A stretch of DNA of 64,000 nt, taken from assembly GCA_938041955.1 (NCBI GenBank), contig CALISD010000071.1, forward strand, positions 1-64,000, read 5' to 3'. The position numbers and the translations under genes were made by a program. Source of the stretch: an uncultured Granulosicoccaceae bacterium (GTDB taxonomy: Bacteria > Pseudomonadota > Gammaproteobacteria > Granulosicoccales > Granulosicoccaceae). The notes under the pieces are model-generated. The model saw nothing but the letters and a program-made list of their open reading frames with translations, ran no database searches and had not been told where the DNA came from. Position 1 is the first letter of the stretch; every line of letters starts with the position of its first letter. Of this stretch, positions 7,914-64,000 are shown piece by piece.

Positions 7914-7979
7914 GAAAGGGATGCTCCAGTGAAGCCCGGACAGAACGTCCGGGCACTCTTCTACAAATGACTTAAGCAG

Positions 7980-9227
7980 TTACGGCTTGTACCAGCTATC
8001 AAGACCTTCCTGAAGTTTCTTGCTTAACTCTTCCGGTGTACCGGCGCCCTTAATGGCTGCAACTGATGCACCCCAGGTATCGTTTTCAAGGTTTGGTGTG
8101 CCACGCGACAGAATTTGATAGGTAGAACGAATGGTGCTTTCACACTCACCCCGCCAGCTGACAAACTCTTTGGCAAGCGCATCATCAAGCTCTACCGGTG
8201 CGCTGGAGAGTGGGAAAAAACCAGGTAACGCATTGCCAAATATTGAGGCGAAGGTCGGGCTGGCTACCCACGACAAAAACTTCTTGGCAGCGTCGGCATT
8301 TTTAGATGCCGCATTCATACCCAGACCGATGTCCGTATGATCTGAAATATAACAAGTATCTCCGTTAGCCTTAACCGGTGGCTTGAACGCCCCCATTTCG
8401 AAGTCTGCCTGCTCATTAAAGCCAGAGATCTCCCAGCTACCTGCAGGGTAGATCGCACCACGACCGAGCGTAAACATATTCTGGCTATCCGGATAAGTTT
8501 GTGCTTCGTACCCATCACCCATATAAGCGCCCCACTTAGCCAGGGTTGCATAAGGCGCTACCCACTGTTCGTCCGTCAGCTTTTGCTCACCCTTTAACAG
8601 TGCCAGCCGGCCCTCTTCGCCTTTCCAATAATTCGGGCCGATGTTGTTATAACCCATGGTGGCTGCTTCCCACTGGTCATTGGTGCCCATGACCAATGGA
8701 ATGTACGAGCCTTCTGCCTTGATTTTCTCAAGCACTGCGAAAAACTCTTCCTCGGTAGTGGGTGCTTCTACACCTATTTCTTTGAAGGCGTCTTTGTTGT
8801 AGATGAATCCATGGATAACTGATGCCATAGGCACACAAAAGCTGGCGCTGCCGTCATCGGTTTGCCAGGCAGACTTTGCTACATCAGAAAAGTTTGACAT
8901 CGATTCCATGTCATCAAGATCGGCTAAATGACCGGCATCAAATAGTGCGAGCGACGCATCAAATGGTCTGCAGGTGATCAGGTCACCAGCGCTGCCCGCT
9001 TCAAGCTTTGAATTAAGTGCAGCGTTATATTCCGTTGGTGCCGATGGCGTGAATTCTACTTTAATTCCCGGATTTTCAGATTCAAACGCCGGAATGATTT
9101 TATCCTGCCAGAGGGCGAGATCATCGTTGCGCCAGCTTTCAATAGTGATCGTTACATCTGCCGCCATAGCACTACCGGCAAACAGTAAGGCTCCGCTTAA
9201 CGCAGCGGTACAAAATGCTTTATTCAT
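7980..9227 (-). CDS. Extracellular sugar-binding protein of the ABC importer
   Basis: About 415 residues, with a classical Sec signal peptide (MNKAFCTAALSGALLFAGSA, cleaved after AMA). The mature protein begins DVTITIESW and shows the Family 1 binding-protein pattern (FESENPGIKVEF, YNKDAFKEIGV, and a PAGSWEISGF-type core). It captures the substrate in the periplasm and delivers it to the permeases. The ATG at 9227 is preferred to the in-frame GTG three codons earlier, because AGGTGA lies at proper distance from the ATG. Neighbours suggest an amino sugar (MurNAc, GlcNAc or an oligosaccharide) as ligand; this is inference. Confidence 0.92.
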   Translation of the reverse strand: MNKAFCTAALSGALLFAGSAMAADVTITIESWRNDDLALWQDKIIPAFESENPGIKVEFTPSAPTEYNAALNSKLEAGSAGDLITCRPFDASLALFDAGHLADLDDMESMSNFSDVAKSAWQTDDGSASFCVPMASVIHGFIYNKDAFKEIGVEAPTTEEEFFAVLEKIKAEGSYIPLVMGTNDQWEAATMGYNNIGPNYWKGEEGRLALLKGEQKLTDEQWVAPYATLAKWGAYMGDGYEAQTYPDSQNMFTLGRGAIYPAGSWEISGFNEQADFEMGAFKPPVKANGDTCYISDHTDIGLGMNAASKNADAAKKFLSWVASPTFASIFGNALPGFFPLSSAPVELDDALAKEFVSWRGECESTIRSTYQILSRGTPNLENDTWGASVAAIKGAGTPEELSKKLQEGLDSWYKP

Positions 9228-9264: not shown

Positions 9265-10152
9265 TCAATTGTTTAACCGCGATAGCGCAGTTCTAAGTTG
9301 GCCACCACTGTTATCTAACAGCTGACTGGCCGAATGGGTTGAGGCAGCACCCGCCGCAAGCAACACAGCGAGTTTCACATTACCACGACTTTGTTTTAAG
9401 GCCTTCAATGCGACTTCATCAGACACCTGAACAGAGTGGACAACTATTTTGAAAGCGCGTTGCCTGAGCTTTGCGTTGTCGGCACGCAGATTTACCATCA
9501 TGCCATCGTAAATATGTCCGAGCTCAATTGCCATAAGTGTTGATAGTGAATTTAATGCTATTTTTTGCGCTGTGCCCGCACCCAGCCGTGTAGAACCTGC
9601 GACCACTTCGGCTGGTGTATTAAGAAAAACAGGATAATCGGAAAGTTCTAAAAGCTTGCACCGGTCATTGTTTGCAATACCAATCACGGTAGCGCCTGCC
9701 TTTTTGGCAACCTCCGCAGCCGCCACTGTAAAAGGCGTATTGCCACTAGCAGAAACGGCAATCATGGTATCACCCGACTTGATCGCACTTAGCTCATGCT
9801 GCGCAGTTTCAGTTTGATCTTCAGTGTCTCCGGGCATAGAGGCACTCCCCGGAAGACCGCCCGCCATAACAATTTTTACCTGTGAACCAGGCACATTGAA
9901 TGTGCCACCCAGCTCCATCGCATCAGCAGCCGCCATCAGGCCCGACGAGCCAGCAGCGGCGTAGTACAGAACATTGCCGGCCCGGATCGAATCAGCCATA
10001 CAGCCCGCGCCCTGACTCACCACTGCACTTACCGCAGATACACTTTGAGCAGCTATCACCTGGCGCTCAGCAATAAATTTTGCGGCGTCGATCGAGCCTT
10101 GCAAATCGATGCGGATTGCGTCGCTCAAAACCTGTTCGGTCACATCAGGCAA
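9265..10152 (-). CDS. murQ: N-acetylmuramic acid 6-phosphate etherase
   Basis: MurQ cleaves the D-lactyl ether of MurNAc-6-phosphate to give GlcNAc-6-phosphate and D-lactate. The 295-residue length is typical. A SIS sugar-phosphate domain occupies about 50-210, with the family stretches AAGSSGLMAAADAMELGGTF, GDTMIAVSASGNTPF and STRLGAGTAQKIALN all present. The start is a TTG at 10152, supported by AGGAG 8-9 nt upstream. It is the first gene of the minus-strand operon, controlled from the promoter and putative operator at 10177-10204. Confidence 0.95.
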   Translation of the reverse strand: MPDVTEQVLSDAIRIDLQGSIDAAKFIAERQVIAAQSVSAVSAVVSQGAGCMADSIRAGNVLYYAAAGSSGLMAAADAMELGGTFNVPGSQVKIVMAGGLPGSASMPGDTEDQTETAQHELSAIKSGDTMIAVSASGNTPFTVAAAEVAKKAGATVIGIANNDRCKLLELSDYPVFLNTPAEVVAGSTRLGAGTAQKIALNSLSTLMAIELGHIYDGMMVNLRADNAKLRQRAFKIVVHSVQVSDEVALKALKQSRGNVKLAVLLAAGAASTHSASQLLDNSGGQLRTALSRLNN

Positions 10153-10176
10153 GTTCTATTTCTCCTGTTTGTTCCA

Positions 10177-10204
10177 ATAATACCATTATGATACCATTTG
10201 TCTA
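10177..10204 (-). promoter_or_regulatory. Sigma-70-type promoter of the murQ/ABC operon
   Basis: On the minus strand, TAGACA (10199-10204; 5 of 6 to the -35 consensus) and TATTAT (10177-10182; 5 of 6 to the -10 consensus) are separated by 16 bp. It lies 25 nt upstream of the murQ TTG start. The putative operator 10179-10195 fills the spacer, an arrangement expected for repression. Confidence 0.6.
10179..10195 (-). promoter_or_regulatory. Putative GntR-type operator, site 1
   Basis: Read on minus this is GGTATCATAATGGTATT, two GGTAT half-sites spaced 11 bp start to start. The same 17-mer with three central changes occurs at 10320-10336 on the plus strand, in the same orientation relative to transcription of the gene it precedes. 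The GntR-family gene at 11215-11970 is the obvious candidate regulator. GGTAT half-sites resemble the TGGT-based sites of HutC-subfamily regulators, although here they are direct rather than inverted. Confidence 0.55.
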
Positions 10205-10319
10205 CACCTCCTGACATTGTACGCAGGCAGATATCGCTATGCGCTGCCTGTCTCACTATAAGAGTCAGGTTTAATCTCACTTTCTGCAGTTCCGAGTTGA
10301 TGATTATGAGTTATTTAAA

Positions 10320-10336
10320 GGTATCTTATAGGTATT
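10320..10336 (+). promoter_or_regulatory. Putative GntR-type operator, site 2
   Basis: GGTATCTTATAGGTATT matches site 1 at 14 of 17 positions and ends 6 nt before the ATG of the kinase gene, so binding here would block transcription or early elongation of the plus-strand operon. The core promoter of that operon is not clear to me. Confidence 0.5.
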
Positions 10337-10342
10337 GTTTAA

Positions 10343-11218
10343 ATGCCTTCTGAGAATTACAAAGCCCTTGCAATTGATGGCGGCGGCACAAAATGCCGCC
10401 TGGCGATGGTATCTGAGTCGAGCTACGAGTATGTCGTCTCAGGCAGCGCAAATGCCTGCGCAGATTTTAATGGCACGGTGGGTTCAATTTTATCCGGAGT
10501 GGAACAGCTTGCTGAGCACCTGGCGATTTCACCACAGACAGTAATCAGCCAACCTGCGTATATAGGCCTCGCAGGTGTTGTCGATGCAGAAATTGCGGAA
10601 CAACTGCGTCTGGCATTGCCATTTTCACAAATGATAATTGAAGATGATCGTCGCTCAGCTCTGCGCGGCGCTCAAGGCACGGACAATGGATTTATTGCGC
10701 ACTGCGGTACCGGTTCTTTCTTTGCGGTACAGGAAAATGGCGTCCAAAAATTCGCCGGTGGCTGGGGCCCGGTACTGGACGATGTTGCATCTGCATATTG
10801 GGTTGGCAGACAAGCACTGTCATTAACCTTGTATGCGTTTGACGGTTTAGAGAAGCACTCTGATATGACGGATGCGCTACTCAGTAAATATGGCGACACC
10901 GCATCTGTTGTTGGGTTCGCAAGCAATGCATCATCAGCCGACATAGCGCATATTGCTCAATCTGTTACGCAATATGCCGAACAAAAAGATCCCAATGCAA
11001 TAAACATTATGCAGCAAGGTGCATCATTGATTAATCATAGACTATTGCAACTTGGCTGGACCGATGGCGCAGCAATCTGTTTGACTGGCGGCATCGGTGG
11101 TCAGTACCAGCGTTTTTTACCGCAGATAATGCAATCTGCCATTGTTACCGCCAAAGGCGAGCCACTGGATGGAGCGGTTGCACTGGCCCGGCAGTTTCAA
11201 CAGGGACTGAGCACATGA
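10343..11218 (+). CDS. BadF/BcrA-type ATPase: N-acetylglucosamine / N-acetylmuramic acid kinase
   Basis: A 291-residue sugar kinase of the BadF/BadG/BcrA ASKHA group. The phosphate-1 motif DGGGTKCRLA is at about 11-20, a second phosphate-binding segment HCGTGSFFAV is in the middle, and the adenosine segment CLTGGIGGQY is near the C-terminus. The N-acetyl-sugar kinases of this fold include GlcNAc kinases and the dual MurNAc/GlcNAc kinase MurK. With murQ and nagA next door, a kinase acting on MurNAc as well as GlcNAc would complete the route, but substrate choice is inference. It is the first gene of the plus-strand operon; its stop overlaps the next start by 4 bp. Confidence 0.85.
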   Translation: MPSENYKALAIDGGGTKCRLAMVSESSYEYVVSGSANACADFNGTVGSILSGVEQLAEHLAISPQTVISQPAYIGLAGVVDAEIAEQLRLALPFSQMIIEDDRRSALRGAQGTDNGFIAHCGTGSFFAVQENGVQKFAGGWGPVLDDVASAYWVGRQALSLTLYAFDGLEKHSDMTDALLSKYGDTASVVGFASNASSADIAHIAQSVTQYAEQKDPNAINIMQQGASLINHRLLQLGWTDGAAICLTGGIGGQYQRFLPQIMQSAIVTAKGEPLDGAVALARQFQQGLST

Positions 11219-11970
11219 ATGCTCATGAATTTCTAAAACCGGATGGCTGGCTCGGAGTATCCGGCGGGCCGCGCTATGTGCAGCTAAAGCGCAGACTGGA
11301 AGAAGGTATCTCATCGGGGGTTCTGCCTGCCGATAGCTCGCTTCCCCCGGAGCGGGAAATTGCCGAGCTAACTGACCTGTCGCGTGTCACAGTGCGCAAG
11401 GCAATTCAGGAACTGGTTAAAGACGGCAGCATTGAACAACGCCAGGGCTCGGGCTCGTTTGTTCGCAAAGGGCTCCCGCGCCTTGAGCAATCGTTGTCAC
11501 ACTTAACTTCATTCACTGAAGACATGCGACGCAGAGGCCTTGAAACCACCTCCACCTGGCTGGAGCGGGGTATCGTTTTGCCCTCACCAGAAGAATTTGT
11601 AGCACTCGGTTTGGCAGCTGGCGATTCCGTAGCACGCATTCATCGCCTGCGCGAAGCCGGAGGACAGCCGATGGCTTTGGAGCGGGCTGTATTGCCTCTG
11701 GATATTCTGCCCAACCCTGCGCAAGTAGACCAATCACTGTATCTGGTACTTGAACATAACGGCCATCGACCGGTTCGAGCCATACAGAAAATTTCTGCTA
11801 TTAATCTTGCTCGTACTGAAGCTGACCTTCTTGCCGTAGCGGAAGGGACTGCGGGATTGAGTATTACGCGTACCTCTTACCTTGAAAGTGGTCGAGTCGC
11901 AGAACTCACGAAGTCGGTATACCGCGGCGATGCATATGATTTTGTTGCCGAACTCCGTCTGTCATATTAG
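11215..11970 (+). CDS. GntR-family (HutC subfamily) regulator of amino-sugar use
   Basis: 251 residues. The winged-helix domain (about 20-90) contains the signature LPPEREIAELTDLSRVTVRKA, followed by a UTRA effector domain (about 100-245). In the NagR/DasR branch the effector is a phosphorylated amino sugar such as GlcN-6-P or GlcNAc-6-P. Its position between kinase and deaminase genes, and the twin 17-bp sites upstream of both operons, make it the likely local repressor. Confidence 0.88.
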   Translation: MNAHEFLKPDGWLGVSGGPRYVQLKRRLEEGISSGVLPADSSLPPEREIAELTDLSRVTVRKAIQELVKDGSIEQRQGSGSFVRKGLPRLEQSLSHLTSFTEDMRRRGLETTSTWLERGIVLPSPEEFVALGLAAGDSVARIHRLREAGGQPMALERAVLPLDILPNPAQVDQSLYLVLEHNGHRPVRAIQKISAINLARTEADLLAVAEGTAGLSITRTSYLESGRVAELTKSVYRGDAYDFVAELRLSY

Positions 11971-11979
11971 AGAGGTATT

Positions 11980-13032
11980 ATGACAATCGCGATAACGCCT
12001 ACCACGCATAGTAAAACCACTATGCGCCGAGAAATAGAAGAAATTCCCCATGCGGTAGAGCGCCTGCTTAGCAATGGTCAAAAGCTTATATCAGCGACCG
12101 CCGGGCAAATTCGACAGCGCGATGTGAGGTTTTTACTGTCGGTTGCCAGAGGATCGTCCGATCATGCCTGTTCATATCTTAAATACGCAAGCGAATTGCT
12201 ATTGCAATTGCCAATGGCCTCGATGGGACCGTCTGTGGCATCGCTATACAACAGGTCGATTCACGCGAACAACACATTATGCATTGCAATATCCCAGTCA
12301 GGCAAAAGCCCCGACATCGTAGATATGGTCCGTGCAACTGCCAATGGCGGCGCATTTACTGTCGCGATAACCAATGACAACCAGTCACCGTTAGCGCAGG
12401 CAGTAGATGCAAGCCTGCCACTTTATTCCGGCAAAGAAGTCAGTGTCGCAGCGACTAAAACATTTATCACCTCAATCGTTACCGGACTTTGGTTGCTTGC
12501 AGAGATAAAAGGCGATGAACACCTGCGAATGGCGCTATTCGATCTGCCAGCCAGGCTTGAAAAAGCGATACAAAACGACTGGTCGCCGGCTGCCTCAGCA
12601 CTGGCAAAAAGCAGCTCACTCTTCACTTTGGGTCGAGGACCGTCGTGGGCGATATCAAATGAAGCCGCACTAAAACTAAAAGAGACCTGCCAGATACATG
12701 CAGAGAGCTATTCTTCTGCAGAAGTATTGCACGGACCCGTCTCGATTGTAGGTAAGGGTTTTCCAGTCATCGGTTTTGCAACCGAAGACGCGACTGGAGA
12801 TTCGCTTGTGGAAGTATGCGACAACCTTGCTTTGAAAGGTGCAAACGTTTTTGTCAGCAGTTCGAAAGCGCGCCAGGCAGTCTGCCTGCCGTCAACCAGA
12901 ACAAATCATTGGCTTACTGACCCGCTAGCGATCATGGTGACTTTCTATGCAATGGTTGAACAGCTTGCCGCCACAAAGGGCATGAACCCTGATACCCCCC
13001 GCCATTTAAACAAGGTCACCGAAACAGTATGA
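11980..13032 (+). CDS. SIS-domain glucosamine-6-phosphate deaminase (NagB-II type)
   Basis: 350 residues with two SIS domains, equivalent to the isomerase half of GlmS without the glutaminase half. Visible are CIAISQSGKSPDIV in the first SIS, LGRGPSWAISNEAALKLKET in the second, and the GlmS-like end NPDTPRHLNKVTETV. Such stand-alone proteins convert glucosamine-6-phosphate to fructose-6-phosphate and ammonia, replacing the unrelated NagB-I. It follows nagR by 9 bp and overlaps nagA by 4 bp. Confidence 0.9.
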   Translation: MTIAITPTTHSKTTMRREIEEIPHAVERLLSNGQKLISATAGQIRQRDVRFLLSVARGSSDHACSYLKYASELLLQLPMASMGPSVASLYNRSIHANNTLCIAISQSGKSPDIVDMVRATANGGAFTVAITNDNQSPLAQAVDASLPLYSGKEVSVAATKTFITSIVTGLWLLAEIKGDEHLRMALFDLPARLEKAIQNDWSPAASALAKSSSLFTLGRGPSWAISNEAALKLKETCQIHAESYSSAEVLHGPVSIVGKGFPVIGFATEDATGDSLVEVCDNLALKGANVFVSSSKARQAVCLPSTRTNHWLTDPLAIMVTFYAMVEQLAATKGMNPDTPRHLNKVTETV

Positions 13033-14177
13033 GTAGTGCGACAATCATCTACACAGGCGGGTTAATTTTTGATGGTCACCAACTGCTGAGAAATTACAGT
13101 GCAGTGTTTTCAAACAATACTTGCACATCGCTTATTCCTGATGCTGAGTTGTGCCAAAGCTCAACAGTAATCGAACTGAATGGCGACATTCTCAGCGCCG
13201 GATACGCCGACTTACAGGTCAACGGCGGCGGCGGCATACTATTCAATGACGACCCGTCGATTGCTACACTAACAACAATAGCCGATGCCCATAACACCAT
13301 GGGTACCACACACTTGCTACCCACACTGATAACGGATGCGCCACAGATAACAGAAGCCGCCATAGAAGCTACGATTGAAGCAACAACAGCAGCGGCGCAC
13401 TCACGGCTTGGCGCTATTGTCGGTCTACACCTGGAGGGGCCGCATATATCTATAGAAAAAAAAGGGGCGCACGATGCCAATCTGATCAGACCAATGCAGC
13501 CAGGTGATTTGAATCTGCTACTGCAGGCCGCACAGCATCTCCCGATACTACAAGTTACATTGGCACCGGAAAACGTTTCCATCAAACAAGTTCAAGCACT
13601 CGCAGAAGCAGGTATTATTGTCGCACTAGGTCATACCAACGCTGACTACAAAACCTGCATCGCATACCATCAAGCCGGCGCTCGATGTGTTACCCATCTG
13701 TTCAATGCCATGAGTCAGCTAGGTAGTCGTGAACCGGGCCTGGTGGGTGCCGCCTTCGATACAGACGAACTCTCAGTGGGACTTATCGCCGACGGCGTAC
13801 ATGTACACCCGGCTTCAATCAAAGCCGCATGGAAGATAAAAGCACTTGCCGGGCGCTGCTACCTGGTAACAGATGCGATGACACCCGCCGGAACAACCCT
13901 CGACGCATTTAAGCTTAACGGACGAAATATTAAACGCCAGAATGGCCGCCTGACTCTTGAAGATGGCACCCTCGCCGGTGCTGATATCGAACTGACACAT
14001 GCAATCCGGTTTCTGTGTACCGAAGTCGGCGTTGACCTCGAAGACGCACTAAGGGCTGCGATTGAAGTACCGCGCCAGGTATTGGGGATGGACAAAGCCG
14101 AGGCAAGCATCGTTGGCCAGTCGGCTGGACGCATTATTAGAATAAGCGCCGCACTGGATAAGGTCTGCCATCTGTAA
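13029..14177 (+). CDS. nagA: N-acetylglucosamine-6-phosphate deacetylase
   Basis: This 382-residue amidohydrolase removes acetate from GlcNAc-6-P to give GlcN-6-P for the deaminase upstream. Family motifs are complete: LHLEGPHIS (metal Glu), GHTNADY and CVTHLFNAM (metal His residues), GLIADGVHV and LVTDAMTPAG (catalytic Asp). Length is typical. It is the last gene of the operon. Confidence 0.95.
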   Translation: MSSATIIYTGGLIFDGHQLLRNYSAVFSNNTCTSLIPDAELCQSSTVIELNGDILSAGYADLQVNGGGGILFNDDPSIATLTTIADAHNTMGTTHLLPTLITDAPQITEAAIEATIEATTAAAHSRLGAIVGLHLEGPHISIEKKGAHDANLIRPMQPGDLNLLLQAAQHLPILQVTLAPENVSIKQVQALAEAGIIVALGHTNADYKTCIAYHQAGARCVTHLFNAMSQLGSREPGLVGAAFDTDELSVGLIADGVHVHPASIKAAWKIKALAGRCYLVTDAMTPAGTTLDAFKLNGRNIKRQNGRLTLEDGTLAGADIELTHAIRFLCTEVGVDLEDALRAAIEVPRQVLGMDKAEASIVGQSAGRIIRISAALDKVCHL

Positions 14178-53623: not shown

Positions 53624-55909
53624 CTATTCTTCGGTGTGGGAAATCTCGCGATTAAGTTCCGCTATGCACTGCGTCCTAAAAAACAACCCTCGCTCATGCA
53701 CAGGGTCAAGTGCTAGCAAGCTATTAAAATATTCTATTGCGTCGGTGTTGTTTCCAGCTTTCATTAAATACACAGCGGCAGCATAATGGACTGCCGGCTC
53801 CGCACTAAAGATCCCGGCTACTTCAACCCATCGTCTTGCTGTTTCAGCCCAATCCTCAGTTCGTTTTGGGATATTCGCATAAACAGAATATAGCGGATAG
53901 AAATGCGGACAGTGACCACGAGCTTCTATCAATGTTTTGTCAGCATTCTCAATCATACCCAACTCGATTTCACACAGCGCCTTGTTAAGCCACCCGACCT
54001 TATGCTGTGGCGACAGGCTTATTAAACGGTCAAAATATTCAAGCGCTTCTTGATGTTCTTCGTTGTTAAGTTGGTTTAGACCTGCGTTATACAATATGTT
54101 GCTTTCCTTTGGAAACCGATCAGAGATCGCGCGCCACCTTACCGAGGCTTCAGTGAGATCATTCTTCTTCGTAGAGAGTCCTGCGTATTCATATGCAATC
54201 GGCAAACAATCAGGATGGAAGGATTGTGCCTTGCAAAGTATCAGGTCTGCTTCATCGTAGAGCTCCAACTGAATTAGAGATTGTGCCTTACGCAATAGTG
54301 CTTGTTCATGCAGGGGTTCAATGTCCAATAATTTATCAAAATACTCTACCGCTTTTTCGTGTTTTTGCGCTTTTGTAAAATAAACTGCTGCTGAATAATG
54401 CGCAGCCGGCTCAGCACTGAAGATCGCAGACACTTCACTCCATCGCAGTGCGACCGCGTCCCAATCCTCACATTCTTTAGGCATATTTGCGTACTTAGCA
54501 TATAACGGGTAATAGTCCGGAAAGTGGGCTCGCGCCGCTACTAAAGTCGTACTAGCTTGCTCAAATATTCCCAACTCGATCTCACACTGCGCCTTGTTAA
54601 GCCATCCCGACTTGTTTCCAGGCTCCAGCGCAAGCAAACGCTCATAGTAGGCAAGCGCATCTCCGTAAGACTCGAGATAAAAACAACACGAAGATAGATA
54701 ATTTAATACCTCAACATTTTCTGGTTTTTTTTCAACCACAATTTCAAGTAGCCTCTGCGCTCTGGAATATTCAGCTAACTGATAGCTTGCAACCGCACCT
54801 GCCAGGACAATTAAACCATCCTCTTTAACTGATTCTGACGCTATGTTTTCACGCTTTGAAACCTGACCAATTATCGGATCTACCGCCGTCGCTATGAGCT
54901 GATTTGCATAATGCTTAGCTTCCGAAAGAAGCAACTCTTTGTCTTCGACAGTACAATCACCACTACTCTTTGGACTGGCTTTATTAAACAGGCTGATCCG
55001 CTCCGGGAAATACTCAGTTTTCACCTGTTCATTAACGTTCAAATAGTAATCTTCGTAAGCGCCGTATAATTCATCACTCATTCGATAACTACTATCATTG
55101 TATTGTCGCTCTACAAAAGCTAAGATCTCTTTTCGGAACGGGTTCAAACTACCATCAATCCATCTGGGGAATAATTTATTCAAATAACAAAGCACATCGA
55201 TTCCATCATTGGATAGACTTTCATTTTTGTTTTTTGGTATTGCGAATTCTCGCCTAGGAACACAACCAATCGTATGCAGAAAATCATCCACGATTGAGTC
55301 GTTTACAATCTCACCTCTTTCAAAAATTCTCGGAATTATTTTCGACTTACCAAATACAGAGCTGTACCTGGATAGCGTTTTTAAATGATTACATAAATGG
55401 CTGTATCTTCCATCTATCATCGGACGCTGTGGACTGGACGCAATTTCACCAGCCTTTACAGAAGTGGAATAAAACGAACTGGCCAGATCAACCTGCTTTC
55501 TAAGGTATACAACAACATAGATATCGTGAAGGCCAGCACTGTGCAATATTTCCTTCACACGCTGCACCTCTTCCTGTGATGTAAGATTCAGATGAAAATA
55601 CTCAGAGGAAAAAACTATGCTTTTGACTTTCTTAGTGTCCAGAGTTTCCAGCTCGCCTCTTAAGTTGGAGGTGATTTTCTCTCTAAGCAGGAATAAATCT
55701 TCATCACAATGCACATTTAGAAAATGTGACAACCCGTCATTTCTAAACCGATCATAAGCAGAAACTACCAGACTAAAGTCATTGGTCGCACCAGTGGATG
55801 TCGGATAGAAGACCCCATCTTCTAATAGTAAATTTCTATTGTTGTTGAGAAACGCCTGCAGAGTTGTGGTGCCAGTTTTTGGCGAACCAATGTGTAGGTA
55901 AACCTTCAT
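53624..55909 (-). CDS. Sulfotransferase-like protein with C-terminal TPR repeats
   Basis: About 761 residues from MKVYLHIG (ATG 55909). The N-terminal half is sulfotransferase-like: GSPKTGTTTLQ forms the PAPS phosphate-binding loop, SSEYFHL and VYLRKQVDLASSFYS follow. The C-terminal half (about 365 onward) is tetratricopeptide repeats arranged as a duplicated block: GWLNKAQCEIELGIFEQA and GWLNKALCEIELGMIENA, each followed by ARAHFPDYYPLY / ARGHCPHFYPLY and IFSAEPA.HY.AAVY. It probably sulfates a surface glycan or protein, using the TPR region for binding; substrate unknown. The first frame start (55984) adds 25 unlikely residues. Confidence 0.85.
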   Translation of the reverse strand: MKVYLHIGSPKTGTTTLQAFLNNNRNLLLEDGVFYPTSTGATNDFSLVVSAYDRFRNDGLSHFLNVHCDEDLFLLREKITSNLRGELETLDTKKVKSIVFSSEYFHLNLTSQEEVQRVKEILHSAGLHDIYVVVYLRKQVDLASSFYSTSVKAGEIASSPQRPMIDGRYSHLCNHLKTLSRYSSVFGKSKIIPRIFERGEIVNDSIVDDFLHTIGCVPRREFAIPKNKNESLSNDGIDVLCYLNKLFPRWIDGSLNPFRKEILAFVERQYNDSSYRMSDELYGAYEDYYLNVNEQVKTEYFPERISLFNKASPKSSGDCTVEDKELLLSEAKHYANQLIATAVDPIIGQVSKRENIASESVKEDGLIVLAGAVASYQLAEYSRAQRLLEIVVEKKPENVEVLNYLSSCCFYLESYGDALAYYERLLALEPGNKSGWLNKAQCEIELGIFEQASTTLVAARAHFPDYYPLYAKYANMPKECEDWDAVALRWSEVSAIFSAEPAAHYSAAVYFTKAQKHEKAVEYFDKLLDIEPLHEQALLRKAQSLIQLELYDEADLILCKAQSFHPDCLPIAYEYAGLSTKKNDLTEASVRWRAISDRFPKESNILYNAGLNQLNNEEHQEALEYFDRLISLSPQHKVGWLNKALCEIELGMIENADKTLIEARGHCPHFYPLYSVYANIPKRTEDWAETARRWVEVAGIFSAEPAVHYAAAVYLMKAGNNTDAIEYFNSLLALDPVHERGLFFRTQCIAELNREISHTEE

Positions 55910-56245
55910 AGCTTTCTTTGTTGTTATTGTTTGGTTGTGCTCGCATGGCAGGATTCGAACTGGAGATTGAATACTTCTATTCATAGGACTCTGTTCAATC
56001 TAGTTGTGCGCATTTACTATGCCAGAGCGCAATAAAATCTATAAGTTACACCGCCCGCCCCTCTAGTTAAAACGATCTATCTCGAGTCAGAATTCTGTTA
56101 TTCGACGCACCACCCAAGATCACACACTAAATCGTTAACAATATTGCATTTTCTGCCAACCGAAAAACTAATGTGATCTCTGTCACATAAACACAGCGTA
56201 TATTGTGTGAATATCTGTCGACTTAGCGATCACGTGTAAACATTA
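55910..56245. other. Divergent control region
   Basis: 336 bp between the divergent sulfotransferase and SGNH hydrolase genes. The right half is AT-rich and holds the CRP site. A short stretch at 55942-55962 resembles a tRNA T-arm but no tRNA can be folded (see rejected items). Confidence 0.6.
56172..56187 (+). promoter_or_regulatory. CRP (cAMP receptor protein) binding site
   Basis: TGTGATCTCTGTCACA matches the consensus TGTGA-N6-TCACA at all ten key bases. Its centre (56179.5) lies about 41 bp before a possible start at 56221, which would follow the -10-like GAATAT (56209-56214), a class II spacing. An alternative -10, TATATT at 56199-56204, would bring it nearer. It should control the SGNH hydrolase gene and perhaps the oxidase after it. 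Confidence 0.75.
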
Positions 56246-58225
56246 ATGAACAAATATATCTCTTGGAAGTCAATAAACTGCTCGATATTACTTCTCGCAT
56301 CATGGTGCTTTACAAGCATCGCCCATGCGCAAACGAGCACCATCACCACTTTCACAAATTCTTCCCTTGCTGGCACCGCTAGTGCAAGTGCACCAATAGC
56401 ACACGTTGACATATCAATTCAGCGCGGGAGCTTATTTTGGAATGGGACTGCTTTTACTGGTACATGGAAAAGATTCAGAACTGCGGTCAGCAATTCTGGA
56501 AACAACGCCACATGGAGCTATTCCATGTCGCTTCCAAGTGGCTTCAATTATATCGCTACCTCACGCGCAATAGATGTCAACGGGAATGTTCAAGCTCCGA
56601 TGGCAATCGCTTATACGGATCCCGTTAGACCCACTTCTACTATCACTTCAACCTCTTCCACTGTCATCACTGGTACGGCTAACGATAATATACAGTTGGA
56701 TCGTGTGGAACTGGCCATCAGAAATACCGCTCCGCAGTTCTGGAACGGCTCAGCATTGGTAAACGGTTATCGAAGAGTATCTGTCTCTCCACAATCCAAT
56801 GGAAACTGGGCGTACAATTTTGGCTCAGAACTGCCTCTTGGCCAGTACTATGTCACAGCCATAGCTTTCGACACAGCAGGTAATGCGCAACAACCTTTCA
56901 CGACCAAAGGATTTACAGTCACTATTGAAGACTCAATAAGACCAACATCCACAATATCCACCGCCACAGGCACCGCAATTAACGGTACCGCCGCCGACAA
57001 TATCGCTGTCGCCAGCGTGCAGCTTGCGATCAGAAATACCAACCTGCAATACTGGAACGGAACAGGAATGGGAGGCGCATATAACAGAGTCCCAGCCACA
57101 CTTTCGCAAAACGGAACAAGCTGGAGCTACAATATCAGTGGATCACTACCTTTGGGATCTTATGTCGTCACTTCCATAGCGTTTGATGCCGCTGGCAATG
57201 TGCAGAGTCCGTACGCAAATAAATCTTTTGTGGTAACTGTTCCTGACAACGCAAAACCCACGACTCAAATCACCAGCCCAACCAGTGGCTCCACTTTGAC
57301 CCAGTCCCCTGTTTTAATCAACGGCGTTGCAAACGATGATGTTGCCGTTGCCAGAGTCGAATTGGCGATTAGGAATCATTACGCCGAGACATTCTGGAAT
57401 GGCAGCAGTTGGCAACCCAGTTATGTCAGAGTTACAGCCAATGCGACAAACCCGGGTGCTTCATCTACCTCCTGGAGTTACTCGCTTCAACCCGAACTCG
57501 GCACTTTACTGGGCATCACTTCCTTTGCATTTGACACGGCGGGAAAAGCAAGTGCTCCAACCAGCATCAATGCCGGCGTCAAATTAAAAATAATGGCTCT
57601 CGGGGACTCCATTACCGAAGGCATCAGTGGCCAAATGAGCTATCGGATGCCTCTAACCACCGAGCTGGATTTAACCGGATGTGTGTATGAAATGGTGGGT
57701 ACAAAAACGCAGAACCTTACCAATACCGGATTCATATCAAGTCACGCAGGCTACTCGGGACACAGCACTCAGTATTTTCTTGACCACACTGCATACCCGA
57801 ACGCTCAAAATCCAGGTATAGATTTCATTATCAATAATAGCAATCCTGATGTCGTGCTGGTGCATCTTGGTTCCAACGACATGAATAGATCAGATTCGAT
57901 TTCAGGCACGGTCGCGGAGTTGGATTCGCTCGCGAGTAGAATATGGAGCATAAATTCAGACACGCAGATTTATGTCGCCAACGTTATCCCCTGGTATGGG
58001 AACAGCAACAACAGCAATATTGCTTCAGATGTTGCCACTCTGGGGAATCAGATTGAAAGCTGGATCAACAGCCAGGGAGATTCGCGGCTGCACAATGTTG
58101 ACGTTAAATCCGGCTATTCAACGTCTTACATGATCAGCGACGGGATTCATCCTAACGCGTTAGGAGATGCACATATCGCTGATGCGTTCTTAGCAAGCAT
58201 GGCGAATGAAAGTTTGTGTCCATAA
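56246..58225 (+). CDS. Secreted SGNH/GDSL hydrolase with four N-terminal Ig-like repeats
   Basis: 659 residues. Signal peptide of about 28 (cleaved after AHA). Four related repeats of about 100 residues (roughly 31-125, 130-230, 232-334, 337-445) each show a YWNG/FWNG motif and end in AFDTAGN-type strands. The C-terminal SGNH esterase has all blocks: GDSITEG with Ser455, Gly502 in AGYSG, GSND with Asn544, and DGIHP with Asp632 and His635. It probably removes acyl or acetyl groups from a polysaccharide outside the cell. The following gene starts 41 bp later and shares the repeat module. Confidence 0.9.
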   Translation: MNKYISWKSINCSILLLASWCFTSIAHAQTSTITTFTNSSLAGTASASAPIAHVDISIQRGSLFWNGTAFTGTWKRFRTAVSNSGNNATWSYSMSLPSGFNYIATSRAIDVNGNVQAPMAIAYTDPVRPTSTITSTSSTVITGTANDNIQLDRVELAIRNTAPQFWNGSALVNGYRRVSVSPQSNGNWAYNFGSELPLGQYYVTAIAFDTAGNAQQPFTTKGFTVTIEDSIRPTSTISTATGTAINGTAADNIAVASVQLAIRNTNLQYWNGTGMGGAYNRVPATLSQNGTSWSYNISGSLPLGSYVVTSIAFDAAGNVQSPYANKSFVVTVPDNAKPTTQITSPTSGSTLTQSPVLINGVANDDVAVARVELAIRNHYAETFWNGSSWQPSYVRVTANATNPGASSTSWSYSLQPELGTLLGITSFAFDTAGKASAPTSINAGVKLKIMALGDSITEGISGQMSYRMPLTTELDLTGCVYEMVGTKTQNLTNTGFISSHAGYSGHSTQYFLDHTAYPNAQNPGIDFIINNSNPDVVLVHLGSNDMNRSDSISGTVAELDSLASRIWSINSDTQIYVANVIPWYGNSNNSNIASDVATLGNQIESWINSQGDSRLHNVDVKSGYSTSYMISDGIHPNALGDAHIADAFLASMANESLCP

Positions 58226-58266
58226 CGTAGCATCTCGCATACCGGCAATAGAAGAAGGAAACGAAA

Positions 58267-61200
58267 TTGAGCAAGGACGCTTACATACGCTGGTCGTTCC
58301 TTATGCTTTTAGCTTGTTGTCCTGGGATGATACTAGCCCAGGACATCACCCCCCCGACCGCTACCATCAGCACTGCAGATGCAACTGGCATCTCCGGCAC
58401 TGCTGCCGACAACATCGCGCTAGACCGCGTAGAACTTGCTATCAGCAATCCCGCCTACCAGTACTGGAATGGCACTGAATTCGGGCCCTACACTCGGGTC
58501 CAAACATCGCTACAACCTGATGGCAGCTGGCAGTATCTGTTATCTCCTGGGCTTCCACCCGATAGATACACCGTTGTCAGCTTTGCTTTCGATTCCTCAG
58601 GTAACCCGCAAAACCCCAGAGACATTCTCTCTTTCACTGTCGCGCCGGAAGACAATATTCCCCCTACCGCTATCATCAGCGCTGCTGATGCAACCAGTAT
58701 CTCTGGCACTGCTTCTGACAACGTCTCACTAGACCGCGTAGAGCTCGCTATTAGCAATCCTGGCTACCAATACTGGGACGGGTCTGAATTCGGGTCCTAC
58801 ACCCGGGTCCAAACATCGCTACAACCTAATGGAAGCTGGCAGTATCTATTTTCTCCGCTGCTTCCACCCGATAGATACACCGTCGTCAGCTTTGCATTTG
58901 ATTCCTCAGGAAACCCGCAAAACCCCAGAGACATCCTCTCTTTCACTGTTGCACCGGAAGACAATATACCCCCTACCGCTACCATCACCGGTGCCGATGC
59001 AACCAGTATCTCCGGCACTGCTGCCGACAACATTGCGCTAGACCGTGTAGAACTTGCCATTAGCAATCCCGCCTACCAGTACTGGAATGGCACCGAATTC
59101 GGCCCTTACACCCGGGTCCAAACATCGCTGCAACCCGATGGCAGTTGGCAGTATCTGTTTTCTCCTACACTTTCAGCCGATAGGTACACCGTTGTCAGTT
59201 TTGCTTTCGATTCCTCCGGCAACCCGCAAAACCCCAGAGACGTTCTCTCTTTCACTGTTGCACCGGAAGACAATATTCCACCTACCGCTACCATAACCGC
59301 TGCCGATGCAACCAGTATCTCCGGCACTGCTGCCGACAACATTGCGCTAGACCGTGTAGAACTTGCCATTAGCAATCCCGCCTACCAATACTGGAATGGC
59401 ACTGAATTCGGCTCCTACACCCGAGTCCAAACCTCTCTGCAACCTGATGGCAGTTGGCAGTATCTGTTATCTCCTAGGTTTCCACCCGATAGATACACCG
59501 TTGTCAGTTTTGCTTTCGATTCCTCCGGCAACCCGCAAAACCCCAGAAACGTTCTCTCTTTCACTGTTGCACCGGAAGACAATATTCCACCTACCGCAGC
59601 CATCAGCAACGCCAATGGAACTGGGATCTCCGGCACTGCTTCCGACAACGTATCACTAGACCGCGTAGAACTGGCCATACGAAATTCCAGTTCACTGTAT
59701 TGGAATGGCTTAACATTTGGGGGCTATGCCCGGGTACAAACATCACTTAATACCGATGAGACCTGGCAATATCAGTTTTCAACTGCACTCCCACCTGGTA
59801 GCTATACAGTCGTAGTATTTCCGTTTGATCAATCACAAAACACACCAGCCGATAGAGATACTGTTTCATTTACAGTGGACCCTCCAAATAACTTTATCAG
59901 CCAAGGTCCAGGCGCGTGGGGCAATCCAATCAGCCTGCCATCTATCCCTGTGTCCGCCGCCAATCTGCCAGACGGTAGAATCTTAACCTGGGCTGCGTAC
60001 AATCAATTCGACTATCTTTACAATGTAGACAACCAACGCACCTACACAACTATTTTTAATCCTTTAACCGAGACAGCCAACGAAGAACTAGTAGCTAACA
60101 CTAACCACGATATGTTTTGCCCAGGCGCCAGTATGCTATCCGATGGAAGTATTATGGTGACAGGCGGTAGCAGTGTTGCCAGAACCAGCATTTTCAATCC
60201 CACTTCCGGGAGCTGGTCCTTTGAAGATAGCCTCAACATACCTCGCGCATATAATTCAAACACAACGGTACATGATGGATCAGTACTTACACTTGGTGGA
60301 TCCTGGGCAGAAGAGTCGTTATGCAGAACAGGTGTAACCTCTTCGCAGAACAACTGTCCTGACAAATTGGCCGAGATATGGAACCCCGCAACCGGCTGGA
60401 AAATACTGCCAGGCATTAGCGCAGATGTACTACGAACTAACGATCAAGATGGATTATTCAGGTCCGACAATCATATGTGGCTGTTCGCAGTACCTGGAGG
60501 TAAGGTTTTGCATGCTGGCCCATCAAAAAAGATGCACCTACTCAATCTCGCAGGAAACGGTTCAATCCAACCAGTGGGTAATCGAAGTGACGATAGCGAT
60601 GCGATGAACGGGAACGCAGTAATGTATGACGTAGGGTCACTGCTAACAATTGGAGGTGCTGCCGACTACGAAAACGCAAATGCCACTAACAACGCGTTTG
60701 TAGTTGAAGTCAGCGGCTCTGTTGTTTCAAGCAGGCGTACCGGTTCGTTGAGCTTTAGCAGGGCCTACCACAACAGTGTAGTTTTGCCCAATGGGGAAGT
60801 AGTTGTGATTGGCGGGCAATCATACCCGGTACCGTTTTCCGACAACACCTCTGTGTTACCTGCAGAATTGTGGAACCCCATCACAGAGAATTTTAGAACT
60901 CTTGCATCAATGTCGACACCAAGGAACTACCACAGCATCGCGTTGTTACTAAACGACGGAAGAATTATCGCCGGCGGAGGCGGACTTTGCGGAGACTGCT
61001 CAACAAACCATGCCGATGTTGAGATATTCTCTCCCCCGTATCTCTTCGATATAAACGGTAACCTAAAAACTCGTCCAGCGATCTCTTCCGCACCAAGCAC
61101 AGCATCTTACGGGCAAACAGTAACCATACAAACAAACAGCGCTGTTTCTTCTTTTGTATTGATCAGATCCGCAGTCGCTACACATTCTGTAAATAACGAC

Positions 61201-61374
61201 CAACGCCGTATACCACTCTTTTTTGCTCAAACGAACATTAACAACACATACTCTGCGGATATACCAACAGACCCCGGGGTCGTTACCCCGGGAAACTATA
61301 TGTTGTTCGCGCTAGATGAGCACGGCACACCGAGTATATCCACATTGATTAATATACGGGCCAACAATAACTAA
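58267..61374 (+). CDS. Galactose-oxidase-like copper-radical oxidase with five N-terminal repeats
   Basis: 1035 residues. A signal peptide (hydrophobic 9-24) is followed by five 103-residue repeats starting at residues 29, 132, 235, 338 and 441. From about 545 the protein is a galactose-oxidase-type beta-propeller with DUF1929-like C-terminal domain. All hallmark residues have counterparts: Cys618 (HDMFCPG) and Tyr662 (RAYNS) for the thioether cofactor, stacking Trp680 (GGSW), copper ligands Tyr888-His889 (RNYHS) and His973 (THSVNNDQRRIPL). The start is a TTG (58267) with AAGGA at 7 nt. Likely reaction: alcohol to aldehyde with H2O2 release; substrate unknown. Confidence 0.93.
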   Translation: MSKDAYIRWSFLMLLACCPGMILAQDITPPTATISTADATGISGTAADNIALDRVELAISNPAYQYWNGTEFGPYTRVQTSLQPDGSWQYLLSPGLPPDRYTVVSFAFDSSGNPQNPRDILSFTVAPEDNIPPTAIISAADATSISGTASDNVSLDRVELAISNPGYQYWDGSEFGSYTRVQTSLQPNGSWQYLFSPLLPPDRYTVVSFAFDSSGNPQNPRDILSFTVAPEDNIPPTATITGADATSISGTAADNIALDRVELAISNPAYQYWNGTEFGPYTRVQTSLQPDGSWQYLFSPTLSADRYTVVSFAFDSSGNPQNPRDVLSFTVAPEDNIPPTATITAADATSISGTAADNIALDRVELAISNPAYQYWNGTEFGSYTRVQTSLQPDGSWQYLLSPRFPPDRYTVVSFAFDSSGNPQNPRNVLSFTVAPEDNIPPTAAISNANGTGISGTASDNVSLDRVELAIRNSSSLYWNGLTFGGYARVQTSLNTDETWQYQFSTALPPGSYTVVVFPFDQSQNTPADRDTVSFTVDPPNNFISQGPGAWGNPISLPSIPVSAANLPDGRILTWAAYNQFDYLYNVDNQRTYTTIFNPLTETANEELVANTNHDMFCPGASMLSDGSIMVTGGSSVARTSIFNPTSGSWSFEDSLNIPRAYNSNTTVHDGSVLTLGGSWAEESLCRTGVTSSQNNCPDKLAEIWNPATGWKILPGISADVLRTNDQDGLFRSDNHMWLFAVPGGKVLHAGPSKKMHLLNLAGNGSIQPVGNRSDDSDAMNGNAVMYDVGSLLTIGGAADYENANATNNAFVVEVSGSVVSSRRTGSLSFSRAYHNSVVLPNGEVVVIGGQSYPVPFSDNTSVLPAELWNPITENFRTLASMSTPRNYHSIALLLNDGRIIAGGGGLCGDCSTNHADVEIFSPPYLFDINGNLKTRPAISSAPSTASYGQTVTIQTNSAVSSFVLIRSAVATHSVNNDQRRIPLFFAQTNINNTYSADIPTDPGVVTPGNYMLFALDEHGTPSISTLINIRANNN
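58351..59895 (+). repeat. Five tandem 309-bp repeats within the oxidase gene
   Basis: Units start at 58351, 58660, 58969, 59278 and 59587, each exactly 309 bp (103 codons). Units 1-4 are very similar in DNA (long shared runs such as CGGGTCCAAACATCGCTAC in several), and unit 5 is diverged. The exact period in codons means gain or loss of a unit keeps the reading frame. Confidence 0.95.
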
Positions 61375-61413: not shown

Positions 61414-62097
61414 TTACATCGCTTCGCAAACAAAATGATCATTGATATAACATTCTGGTCGAGCCTTGTTAAACTTCAGCACTTTCCAGTCATTGTTAGT
61501 AAGCAACTTTTCAAACGCAGCACTTTTGTGCTTAACAGTTCTTGAAGGATTTTGAGGGAATACCTCAATGTAATCCGCTTCAATATCATCATCAATAAAA
61601 ATTGAGAACAATATCTTAGACCCCTTCGGCAATGACGCTCTGAGAATCCGAAGCATATCATTTGAATCCGGACCATTCAGGTGCGTAAATACCGATATAA
61701 GGCAAGCATAACGCATGTCGCTTACGTCAGTAGGAAGCTTTTCAATAGTTGAAAACTTCTCACCTGCTTTATTATAAAGATTATTAAAAACATGCCAATA
61801 GTGGAAATCGAAATTACTATCCGGCACTTCGGATTTCAGCGCCTGAATAATATCCTCCTTTACATCGACACCACAGTACCTCCCGATTTTAATATCTCTG
61901 TTTAATAAGGTTTGGGTAAATCGAACGCCACATCCTATATCCAATAAACCTACATTCCCCCAGTCGTCAATGGCTAACTCTTCAGCCAAAAATTTAAGCA
62001 GAACTTCACCTGTTTTCTCGGTACCGATCTCCGCTATATTCTTAGCGTTAACGTTTAAATCAGCAAAATCGTATTTTCTAGCAGCAGAGGTCGTCAT
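61414..62097 (-). CDS. Class I SAM-dependent methyltransferase
   Basis: 227 residues. Motif I LLDIGCGVRFTQTLL (about 50-64), then YCGVDVKEDII and the later LISVFTHLNG segment fit the Rossmann methyltransferase fold. Substrate unknown. It lies with a sulfotransferase and an unknown zinc-ribbon gene on the same strand (gap of 70 bp to the sulfotransferase), so a role in making or decorating a surface glycan is plausible. Confidence 0.82.
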   Translation of the reverse strand: MTTSAARKYDFADLNVNAKNIAEIGTEKTGEVLLKFLAEELAIDDWGNVGLLDIGCGVRFTQTLLNRDIKIGRYCGVDVKEDIIQALKSEVPDSNFDFHYWHVFNNLYNKAGEKFSTIEKLPTDVSDMRYACLISVFTHLNGPDSNDMLRILRASLPKGSKILFSIFIDDDIEADYIEVFPQNPSRTVKHKSAAFEKLLTNNDWKVLKFNKARPECYINDHFVCEAM

Positions 62098-62167
62098 ATA
62101 TGCAGTCCAATAAGTATATTATCAATGTGAATTCGGTTGTAGGTATAGACCTTGGTAAGCTCTCTGT

Positions 62168-62956
62168 TTAACCAACAGAAGCTAACTCAGGAACCCGAAG
62201 CTTTCGTAATTTACCTACTCCATACCAGAACAGGTCATAGTCCATTGCGTTTTTTTCTTCAAACTCAATCAAAATAGAGCGAGGCAAACTAGTTTGGATT
62301 TTCTTAAGCTCCTCTTTCCAATCCGAGATAGCTTTCGTTCTATTGTCATGAGCCTTTCCAATTTTAAAACCCGGGAAGGACCCACCAACAAAAGCCTCGA
62401 GCAGTCGACAAGTGTCATCAAAGTACTCCACCACCCCAACCACCGGCATTTCGTCTACACGAGATTTTACTAACTCCAAATCTACCAACTTACCGCTAGC
62501 CTCCCCTCTACTAACATCAGGAATCGACAAAAGTGTTGTCTGATAATTCCTAGACTCTATATTTACCGCATTATTCATAGACCACTCCAACCACTCTGGG
62601 AAATCGAGTTTCTGAGCATATTCTTTACCTGGTTTATCATCGGGTCGAATTCTTTCGTATCGATAAACAGACCCTGCTCGTAAGAGCGGATGACGCACAC
62701 AAACCAGAGGAAGAATCTTATATTTCTTCGATCGATGAACAGTCGGTGTCATTCTATGTGAAGAGAAAGCAACATAATCCCCTCCGCTTTCAATTACCGA
62801 ATCAATTAGATCTTCGTTGAATTCGGCGCTGTCTTTATATCTCGGATCTTTATCAAGCTCCAACAGGGATGTTTTTCCAAACGAATTCCGAATAGCGTTA
62901 TCAATTGTGGATCCCGCATTCTTATAAATATGATAATGCACTAAATAACTTTTCAT
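62168..62956 (-). CDS. Sulfotransferase family protein
   Basis: 262 residues. HIYKNAGSTI (about 8-17) is the PAPS 5'-phosphosulfate loop, and LVCVRHPLLRAGSVYRYE holds the second (3'-phosphate) motif with RHP. It resembles carbohydrate sulfotransferases of cell-surface loci. The ATG at 62956 is chosen over the GTG one codon earlier. It starts 23 bp after the stop of the zinc-ribbon gene. Confidence 0.82.
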   Translation of the reverse strand: MKSYLVHYHIYKNAGSTIDNAIRNSFGKTSLLELDKDPRYKDSAEFNEDLIDSVIESGGDYVAFSSHRMTPTVHRSKKYKILPLVCVRHPLLRAGSVYRYERIRPDDKPGKEYAQKLDFPEWLEWSMNNAVNIESRNYQTTLLSIPDVSRGEASGKLVDLELVKSRVDEMPVVGVVEYFDDTCRLLEAFVGGSFPGFKIGKAHDNRTKAISDWKEELKKIQTSLPRSILIEFEEKNAMDYDLFWYGVGKLRKLRVPELASVG

Positions 62957-62978
62957 CACGCCTATCTCATCGGGCTAT

Positions 62979-63929
62979 CTAAGCCGCATCAACTATAAAT
63001 TGGGATTTCGCAAGATCAGCATTAAGATTTTCGCCGTCCAATTTTAAATCGGTCGCACAACCAATTAACGTATTCTCCAAATATACAATCCCTACTCTAC
63101 TGCTATCCATAAAATGATTTCCAGACATCCCTACAAACAAGGAAGCCCTCACCCCTTTCATTTTATTTATGGAGTTTATACTCACGTTCAATATGTCTCT
63201 CTGATAAGAATCATTCAACATATCTACCGGGATAATCTGATTCACAAACGCTTTATCAGGTATACTGGTTTCAAATTTCTCAACCTGCTCCAAACCTTGC
63301 AGGCTTAATCCATATATCTTCTGTTGATAGCTCTGCTTCTCTAAAAACAGATTTCTACATGACTTTATTGCATCATGAAATGGATTAGATACAGCCCGTA
63401 AAATATTTGCATCAAGTTCGCTAGCATATATATGGGCAGAACAAGACAACTTTAATTCTTGGTATAGGAAGGCATTTAGCAACCTAACTTCCTCAGTCCC
63501 CCCACACTGACACTTTTTGTTCATATCCCAATCGCTCGACGCTCTCCATCTAAAACAGCAATTGCAAAAAAGAAATTTATCTTCATCTTTGTAAAATTGC
63601 TGAATCGCAGTATCAACCCTTGTCAAAAACGACAACTCTTGGGCAATCCAGTCTTCATATTGCTCTACTGATTTAAACTGAGCCATATACATCCAATGGC
63701 TTCTTTCTAAAGGAGCAATGTCACCCTGTTCGGCAATAGACTGCGGAGTATGTTCATTGTCCTTCTCTGCGCTATTCCAGAAAAATGAATAGCCTTGCTC
63801 CAGATGAGTCTCGTGCATATTGCTTTCGACAGTCTGTGTCCAGTTATCAAGTAACTCACCATAGACTTGCTTATTTTTTCTAGTTAGATATTGGCAGTGC
63901 CTGGAGACCACCGGAGAATCTTTGCTCAT
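62979..63929 (-). CDS. Zinc-ribbon protein of unknown function
   Basis: About 316 residues from the ATG at 63929 (GGAG at 5 nt). A knuckle CNCC (122-125) and CQCGG (140-144) make a probable zinc ribbon, followed by LLNAFLYQEL and HIYASELDANILRAV. This order recalls zinc-ribbon-plus-methyltransferase proteins of surface-glycan loci, but no SAM-binding motif follows, so the catalytic identity is open. It is the first gene of the group of three on the minus strand. Base composition looks AT-richer than the housekeeping part. Confidence 0.65.
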   Translation of the reverse strand: MSKDSPVVSRHCQYLTRKNKQVYGELLDNWTQTVESNMHETHLEQGYSFFWNSAEKDNEHTPQSIAEQGDIAPLERSHWMYMAQFKSVEQYEDWIAQELSFLTRVDTAIQQFYKDEDKFLFCNCCFRWRASSDWDMNKKCQCGGTEEVRLLNAFLYQELKLSCSAHIYASELDANILRAVSNPFHDAIKSCRNLFLEKQSYQQKIYGLSLQGLEQVEKFETSIPDKAFVNQIIPVDMLNDSYQRDILNVSINSINKMKGVRASLFVGMSGNHFMDSSRVGIVYLENTLIGCATDLKLDGENLNADLAKSQFIVDAA

Positions 63930-64000
63930 GTTAGCTCCGCTAAAGTGCAGAAACCTCAATGGCTCACCGTTGACTAAAACCGAATCATCAGATTCCCGAA

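Follow-up and report, generated by a model that had tools for sequence, protein, structure and literature searches.

The locus raised the question of whether a long open reading frame in an uncultured Granulosicoccaceae bacterium encodes a sugar oxidase and, if so, what it oxidizes, where it acts and where it came from. The gene occupies positions 58267-61374 (+) of the window, by which we mean the whole 64,000-nucleotide (nt) stretch analysed (contig CALISD010000071.1 of assembly GCA_938041955.1). A first-pass annotation of the same DNA had described its product as a galactose-oxidase homologue with a complete copper-radical site, held off the cell surface by five immunoglobulin-like (Ig-like) repeats and possibly of fungal-bacterial transfer origin. 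From alignment and a structural model, we conclude that the protein is very probably a copper radical oxidase that belongs to the galactose-oxidase type and is secreted; the copper site and the repeats were borne out, and the surface stalk and the transfer were not.

The copper-radical site

Residues 546-1030 of the product aligned with the bacterial structure 9g8h (HMMER, 486.8 bits, E 1.2e-144) and residues 545-1030 with Fusarium galactose oxidase (GO; PDB 1gof; 373.4 bits, E 2.2e-110), and chance resemblance to galactose oxidase was rejected on the first of these values. PF09118 also matched (1.9e-22), together with kelch profiles, and a structural match over residues 544-1032 yielded the propeller and GO-like early-set (E-set) domain that characterize AA5 enzymes. 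The elements of the catalytic unit, all on the plus strand, are as follows.

58267..61374 (+), copper radical oxidase gene, TTG start, 1035 amino acids (aa)
59899..61071 (+), kelch-type propeller of the catalytic domain, aa 545-935 (Pfam, PDB alignment, model)
60118..60120 (+), Cys618, equivalent to GO Cys228, thioether partner (alignment)
60250..60252 (+), Tyr662, equivalent to GO Tyr272, radical tyrosine and copper ligand (alignment)
60304..60306 (+), Trp680, equivalent to GO Trp290, stacking tryptophan (alignment)
60460..60462 (+), Arg732, equivalent to GO Arg330, substrate arginine (alignment)
60928..60933 (+), Tyr888-His889, equivalent to GO Tyr495-His496, copper ligands (alignment)
61072..61356 (+), GO-like early-set domain, aa 936-1030 (Pfam)
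61183..61185 (+), His973, equivalent to GO His581, copper ligand (alignment)

Cys618, Tyr662, Trp680, Tyr888, His889 and His973 thus all lie where the first-pass annotation had placed them, and the local runs it had likened to the Fusarium chain hold as well, HDMFCPG, RSDNH and DQRRIPL being identical and GGGGLCGDC-TNH differing only at its open position. The AA5 ligand set of two tyrosines and two histidines is present by residue identity (Tyr662, Tyr888, His889 and His973), as are both members of the thioether pair (Cys618 and Tyr662). These first-shell residues are identical in 124 of 124 rows of our alignment table, which was reduced from 135 oxidase open reading frame (ORF) hits to 122 bacterial rows, the window included, plus two crystallised reference enzymes from the PDB; left out were two duplicates (L067 and L068) and 11 partial ORFs (L054 twice, L055, L056 twice, L108, L150, L152, L155, L156 and L157). 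The predicted fold, compared with galactose oxidase as had been suggested, matches it, and the model of the catalytic part is confident over most of its length and superposes on known structures at 1.1-1.4 Å. Alignment and modelled fold therefore agree on a galactose-oxidase homologue with a complete site, and residue identity and superposition support convergence of its predicted residues on one copper site.

By the chemistry of the family, Cys618 and Tyr662 would cross-link by themselves given copper and oxygen; the resulting Tyr-Cys radical and Cu(II) would remove two electrons from a primary alcohol to give an aldehyde, and O2 would then reoxidise the site and yield H2O2.

The likeliest substrate

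The substrate, of which we are less sure, would be a sugar primary hydroxyl, and likeliest the C6-OH of galactose-like residues in an extracellular polysaccharide. We propose this because Trp680 and Arg732 retain the pair that marks galactose oxidases; the Trp290/Arg330 combination of galactose 6-oxidase (EC 1.1.3.9) is present in full, and 37 of the 38 table rows with Trp at 290 (W290 rows) have Arg330 as well. Several observations weigh against this reading or against parts of it. Residues 689-695, in the loop directly past Trp680, are modelled with low confidence. Gln326 and Gln406, which are favourable for EC 1.1.3.9 although not strictly defining, are Asp and Glu here, and loss of either or both is reported generally to accompany loss of galactose activity. 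The copy number of the near-identical repeats described below is read from a draft assembly of 222 contigs, and none of 20 related loci compared, some with short flanks, has the esterase neighbour considered later. The two glutamine replacements make galactose itself a tentative assignment; the objection is weakened, however, because the bacterial enzyme 9g8h, whose PDB title describes it as solved with galactose, has neither glutamine (Gly and Asp).

The loop past Trp680 (window 60304-60372) is itself 13 residues longer than in the Fusarium enzyme and carries two cysteines in the window protein and in two oxidases of its genus, L065 and L066, with none in a third, L064; a disulphide adjoining the active site is possible.

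The alternative that survives best is a general or aryl alcohol oxidase, with the same fold and chemistry and a non-sugar primary alcohol as its true substrate, which we regard as a real contender though clearly the less probable one. Acidic residues in place of Gln326 and Gln406, and Phe in place of Tyr329, would fit such an enzyme, and galactose and alcohol activities are dispersed over AA5_2 clades according to PMC11267884, so that clade is no predictor of substrate. The retained Trp290/Arg330 pair nonetheless speaks for a sugar, as do the sugar-binding modules of some relatives (CBM6/35 in L066, ricin-type lectins in L030 and L028), and the C6-OH of a galactose-like residue is regarded as the likeliest substrate.

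Alcohol type or aldehyde type

In GlxA, W288 adjoins the radical tyrosine. The position of this second-sphere tryptophan divides the 124 rows without remainder: in 38 it stands at 290 with none before Tyr272, in 86 it stands directly before Tyr272 (RWY motif) with none at 290, and no row has it in both positions or in neither. A count independent of the alignment gave the same division, with RWY in 86/86 of the non-W290 sequences and 0/38 of the W290 sequences. The window protein reads RAY, with Ala661 before the radical tyrosine where GlxA and glyoxal oxidases have Trp, and Trp680 provides the second-sphere aromatic at 290 that is expected of AA5_2-like enzymes. On an unrooted tree of 60 rows (every one of the 38 W290 rows plus 22 from the 86 others, one row being fungal), a single 100/100 branch separates the W290 rows from the rest, so that on that tree the change is one switch rather than many independent cases. 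PMC13094651 describes a Trp adjoining the radical Tyr in the fungal aldehyde oxidase FgrAldOx (W509-Y510), and the same flipped orientation for W288 of GlxA. This either-or provides an easy way to assign members of the family to the alcohol or the aldehyde type from their sequence.

We accordingly consider it improbable that the window protein is a glyoxal-oxidase or GlxA-type aldehyde oxidase that builds the cell's own glycans. The NCBIfam GlxA model does match residues 642-1030, at 149 bits, far below its cut-off of 800, and a morphogenesis role of GlxA is described in PMC3543389; against these, the window protein has Ala661 and a Trp at 290, in contrast to the Trp before the radical Tyr of the GlxA type, and falls on the opposite side of the 100/100 branch. 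The GlxA-type assignment was rejected on the two residues.

Kelch propellers are often non-enzymatic, and the present evidence does not prove catalysis, but a propeller that only binds or has a structural role, its site a relic, is most unlikely, as the first shell is identical in every row, the two crystallised enzymes among them, and the second-shell Trp and Arg are retained.

The repeats, secretion and the question of an anchor

The five repeats that had been noted ahead of the catalytic part are real: residues 27-541 consist of tandem units with a period of 309 nt, and Pfam reports Big_7, Big_13 and GO-like_E_set on the protein.

58267..58338 (+), probable signal peptide, aa 1-24, cleavage after ILA, N-terminus read by eye
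58345..58653 (+), Ig-like repeat 1, 309-nt period
58654..58962 (+), Ig-like repeat 2, 309-nt period
58963..59271 (+), Ig-like repeat 3, 309-nt period; beta-sandwich in a two-repeat model, mean predicted local distance difference test (pLDDT) 72
59272..59580 (+), Ig-like repeat 4, 309-nt period; in the two-repeat model
59581..59889 (+), Ig-like repeat 5, divergent, 58-63% aa identity to repeats 1-4

At the nucleotide level repeats 1-4 share 84-94% identity with one another, as against 64-67% between them and repeat 5. When repeats 1-4 are compared in pairs, the differences number 154, 49 and 24 at codon positions 3, 1 and 2, respectively, and this concentration on third positions shows that the array is maintained, and is evolving, as protein. 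In a full-length model, built on an alignment of the window and 26 of 34 loci, the repeats were of low confidence (mostly <50); the two-repeat model reached a confidence of 72 with a predicted template modelling score (pTM) of 0.45, so that both marks of a bacterial Ig-like repeat, a Big_7/Big_13 profile match and a beta-sandwich fold, are present. When the 135 oxidase ORF hits were searched with a profile of the five repeats, matches came from the window and, a single one, from L065; the array is thus one companion set among many, unusual in copy number. Within its own genome the repeat was found in the oxidase, in the upstream esterase and in a 934-aa protein of contig C83 that also has a DUF3604 match. 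The five repeats would serve as a spacer or binding arm before the catalytic part.

The oxidase is probably secreted, judging from its N-terminus as read by eye. A ribosome-binding-like AGAAGAAGGA at 58250-58259 (+) ends 7 nt 5' of the TTG, and since a good ribosome-binding sequence precedes that codon a wrong start was rejected; an antisense ORF at 60042-60416 (124 aa) was likewise rejected as a gene, being a mechanical call within the oxidase. A stalk that holds the enzyme off the surface is another matter, because neither a lipobox in the first 60 residues (PROSITE-like pattern) nor an LPXTG motif in the final 60 was found, and the chain stops 5 residues past the E-set domain; the stalk idea is left without an anchor. 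A surface anchor is accordingly not supported, although other means of anchoring are conceivable. Among ORFs with a readable start, the lipobox pattern occurs in the first 100 residues of 4/34 W290-type and 42/83 other-type sequences, and by these counts many of the oxidase paralogues may be cell-bound, whereas the window protein bears no such mark.

Distribution and accessory architectures

Oxidase genes are common in this lineage. The genome itself has five oxidase loci, and PF09118 was found in 34/48 genomes of the family and 14/14 of the genus (the own genome included in the latter), as compared with 10/274 genomes drawn from the class, again including its own, and 0/14 control genomes; the order-level set comprises the same 48 genomes as the family-level set. 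Among the 33 genomes of the family that have a full-length row, 6 carry a W290-type gene (7 genes), and all 6 also have the other type; the W290 type is thus a scattered addition in a lineage where the other type abounds. The catalytic unit keeps varied company: RTX repeats (L064), one Ig-like repeat with TSP3 (L065), CBM6/35 (L066), ricin-type lectins (L030 and L028), PA14 repeats (L060, own genome), CBM4/9 (L063, own genome), and the set of PKD, LamG and a type IX secretion system (T9SS) tail (L046). Granulosicoccus is an alga-associated genus according to PMC9238374. If the sugar substrate holds, the enzyme would add an oxidative step to the bacterial handling of extracellular polysaccharides.

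Origin of the gene

The window gene groups at 100/100 with L064, L065 and L066 from other genomes of its genus. The Fusarium row falls within a 97/96 clade of otherwise bacterial rows, adjoining two Frankiales rows (85/75). By the approximately unbiased (AU) test, however, neither a tree that sets the fungus apart from every bacterial W290 row (p-AU 0.124) nor, narrowly, one that joins it to the window's clade (p-AU 0.0557) was rejected, and both results tell against a firm placement; an old fungal-bacterial transfer, in either direction, is thus possible on this unrooted tree with its one fungal row. GC content at third codon positions (GC3) is 0.49 in the oxidase gene, compared with 0.48 in the nearby isocitrate dehydrogenase and 0.53 in ETF-QO.

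Recent acquisition from a fungus is a different proposition, and one to which we attach very little weight. It could draw on the 42% identity to the Fusarium enzyme over 473 residues, on the unrejected grouping of the fungal row with the window clade, and on PMC3543389, which argues for fungal transfer of streptomycete glxA and suggests something similar for Proteobacteria; yet the nearest rows are bacterial and 58-61% identical, the fungal row lies beside two Frankiales rows inside a bacterial clade, and GC3 is host-like. A recent fungal donor was rejected as the best reading on tree placement and GC3, although the AU tests reject neither alternative. The catalytic-domain phylogeny that had been proposed as a check, carried out here with 60 rows, one of them fungal, consequently lends no support to transfer of this particular gene, whose closest relatives are the three same-genus genes.

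Neighbouring genes

One gene lies immediately upstream on the same strand.

56246..58225 (+), SGNH/GDSL esterase with four related Ig-like repeats, 41 bp upstream of the oxidase

Its Ser of GDS (454-455), GSND and DGIH motifs are present, and its N-terminus, read by eye, suggests that it too is secreted. Spacing and strand make co-transcription with the oxidase likely, and an esterase with related repeats would probably act on the same polymer. In the comparison with 20 related loci its sole match was the Ig-like part of L065's own oxidase.

The pair is flanked by two stretches, window 53624-55984 (-) and 61414-63998 (-), of 39-43% GC as against mostly 47-52% elsewhere in the window. They encode a TPR protein with a sulfotransferase-like N-terminus read by eye, for which Pfam called only the repeats, a Sulfotransfer_2 protein, a methyltransferase-like protein with weak hits and one protein without assignment. 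Past the window on contig C71 (L171, plus strand), genes at 7005-9203, 9328-11076 and 11218-13578, all ending within ~13.2 kb of the oxidase end, encode proteins with, respectively, a glucose/sorbosone dehydrogenase match, five CxxCH motifs with a CCP_MauG match, and a CBM_10 match. Two other loci (L030:7416-8285 (+) and L038:7439-8293 (+)) have, directly after the oxidase, a 284-289 aa protein with a signal-like N-terminus by eye; the 289-aa protein of L030 had no Pfam match.

Di-haem oxidase fusions

The findings of greatest interest concern not the oxidase itself but what surrounds it: the division into two types, how rich the family is in such genes, and a paralogue fused to a di-haem module. 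The last is encoded on contig C217 of the same genome (L172:4814-12202 (-)), a 2462-aa chain that joins an oxidase domain with Trp before Tyr272 to a di-haem module with CxxCH at 1478 and 1608. L100, 89% identical to this chain, has Pfam matches to CCP_MauG and RoxA-like cytochrome; among PDB entries it is similar to hydrazine synthase gamma and to bacterial cytochrome c peroxidases. A CxxCH pair outside the oxidase domain occurs in 18/135 oxidase ORF hits (the own copy, cut there, is not counted). In L031 (5806-11412 (+), a Pseudomonadota metagenome-assembled genome), a W290-type oxidase domain precedes a C-terminal part 48% identical to that of L172 over 711 aa, with the oxidase domains only 34% identical, and this looks like an oxidase domain swapped on the same di-haem chassis. 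No paper on a fusion of copper radical oxidase with cytochrome c peroxidase or MauG was among the literature matches listed. A single chain that both produces H2O2 and carries a peroxidase-like module would be reminiscent of the pairing of alcohol oxidase with peroxidase described for fungi in PMC9770985.

As a speculation that we think rather unlikely in its entirety, one could envision an extracellular system of the family, in which the window oxidase would produce polysaccharide aldehydes and paralogues of the GlxA type in its genome, among them the di-haem peroxidase-like fusion, would convert these to acids, with H2O2 used or removed and the two types split by one switch in Trp position.

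Comparison with known enzymes

Bacterial copper radical oxidases are little studied: PMC3543389 counted two functional studies in 2013. A broad literature search gave nothing on them among the matches listed, a search combining 'galactose oxidase' and 'Granulosicoccus' gave no match, and no paper on the solved bacterial enzyme (9g43/9g8h) was among the matches listed. Some AA5 members, bacterial ones included, fall outside both subfamilies, as stated in PMC11267884.

Compared with Fusarium galactose oxidase (1gof, CAZy AA5_2), the catalytic domain of the window protein is 42% identical and shares all copper and cofactor residues as well as Trp290, Arg330, Tyr405 and Phe464, and differs by Gln326Asp, Tyr329Phe, Gln406Glu and Phe194Tyr. 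Where the window protein has its Ig-like repeats, the Fusarium enzyme has a carbohydrate-binding domain; no such F5/8-type domain is among the Pfam hits of the window protein. Streptomyces GlxA and the fungal AA5_1 glyoxal oxidases differ in supplying the stacking Trp from another position (in FgrAldOx, before the radical Tyr) rather than from 290. The galactose oxidase of Pseudoarthrobacter siccitolerans (PDB 9g43 and 9g8h) has Gly at 326, where the window has Asp, and the solved 9g8h chain has only ~148 residues ahead of the matched part, too few for five Ig-like repeats. The same-genus oxidases L065, L064 and L066, with catalytic domains 58-61% identical in a 100/100 clade with the window, have had their accessory parts swapped, for one Ig-like repeat and TSP3, RTX repeats and CBM6/35, respectively. 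A bacterial galactose oxidase was thus already known, and the window enzyme adds a member to a known family; its galactose-type catalytic domain is fully equipped, and it comes from a lineage in which genes of this kind are frequent and accessory parts interchangeable.
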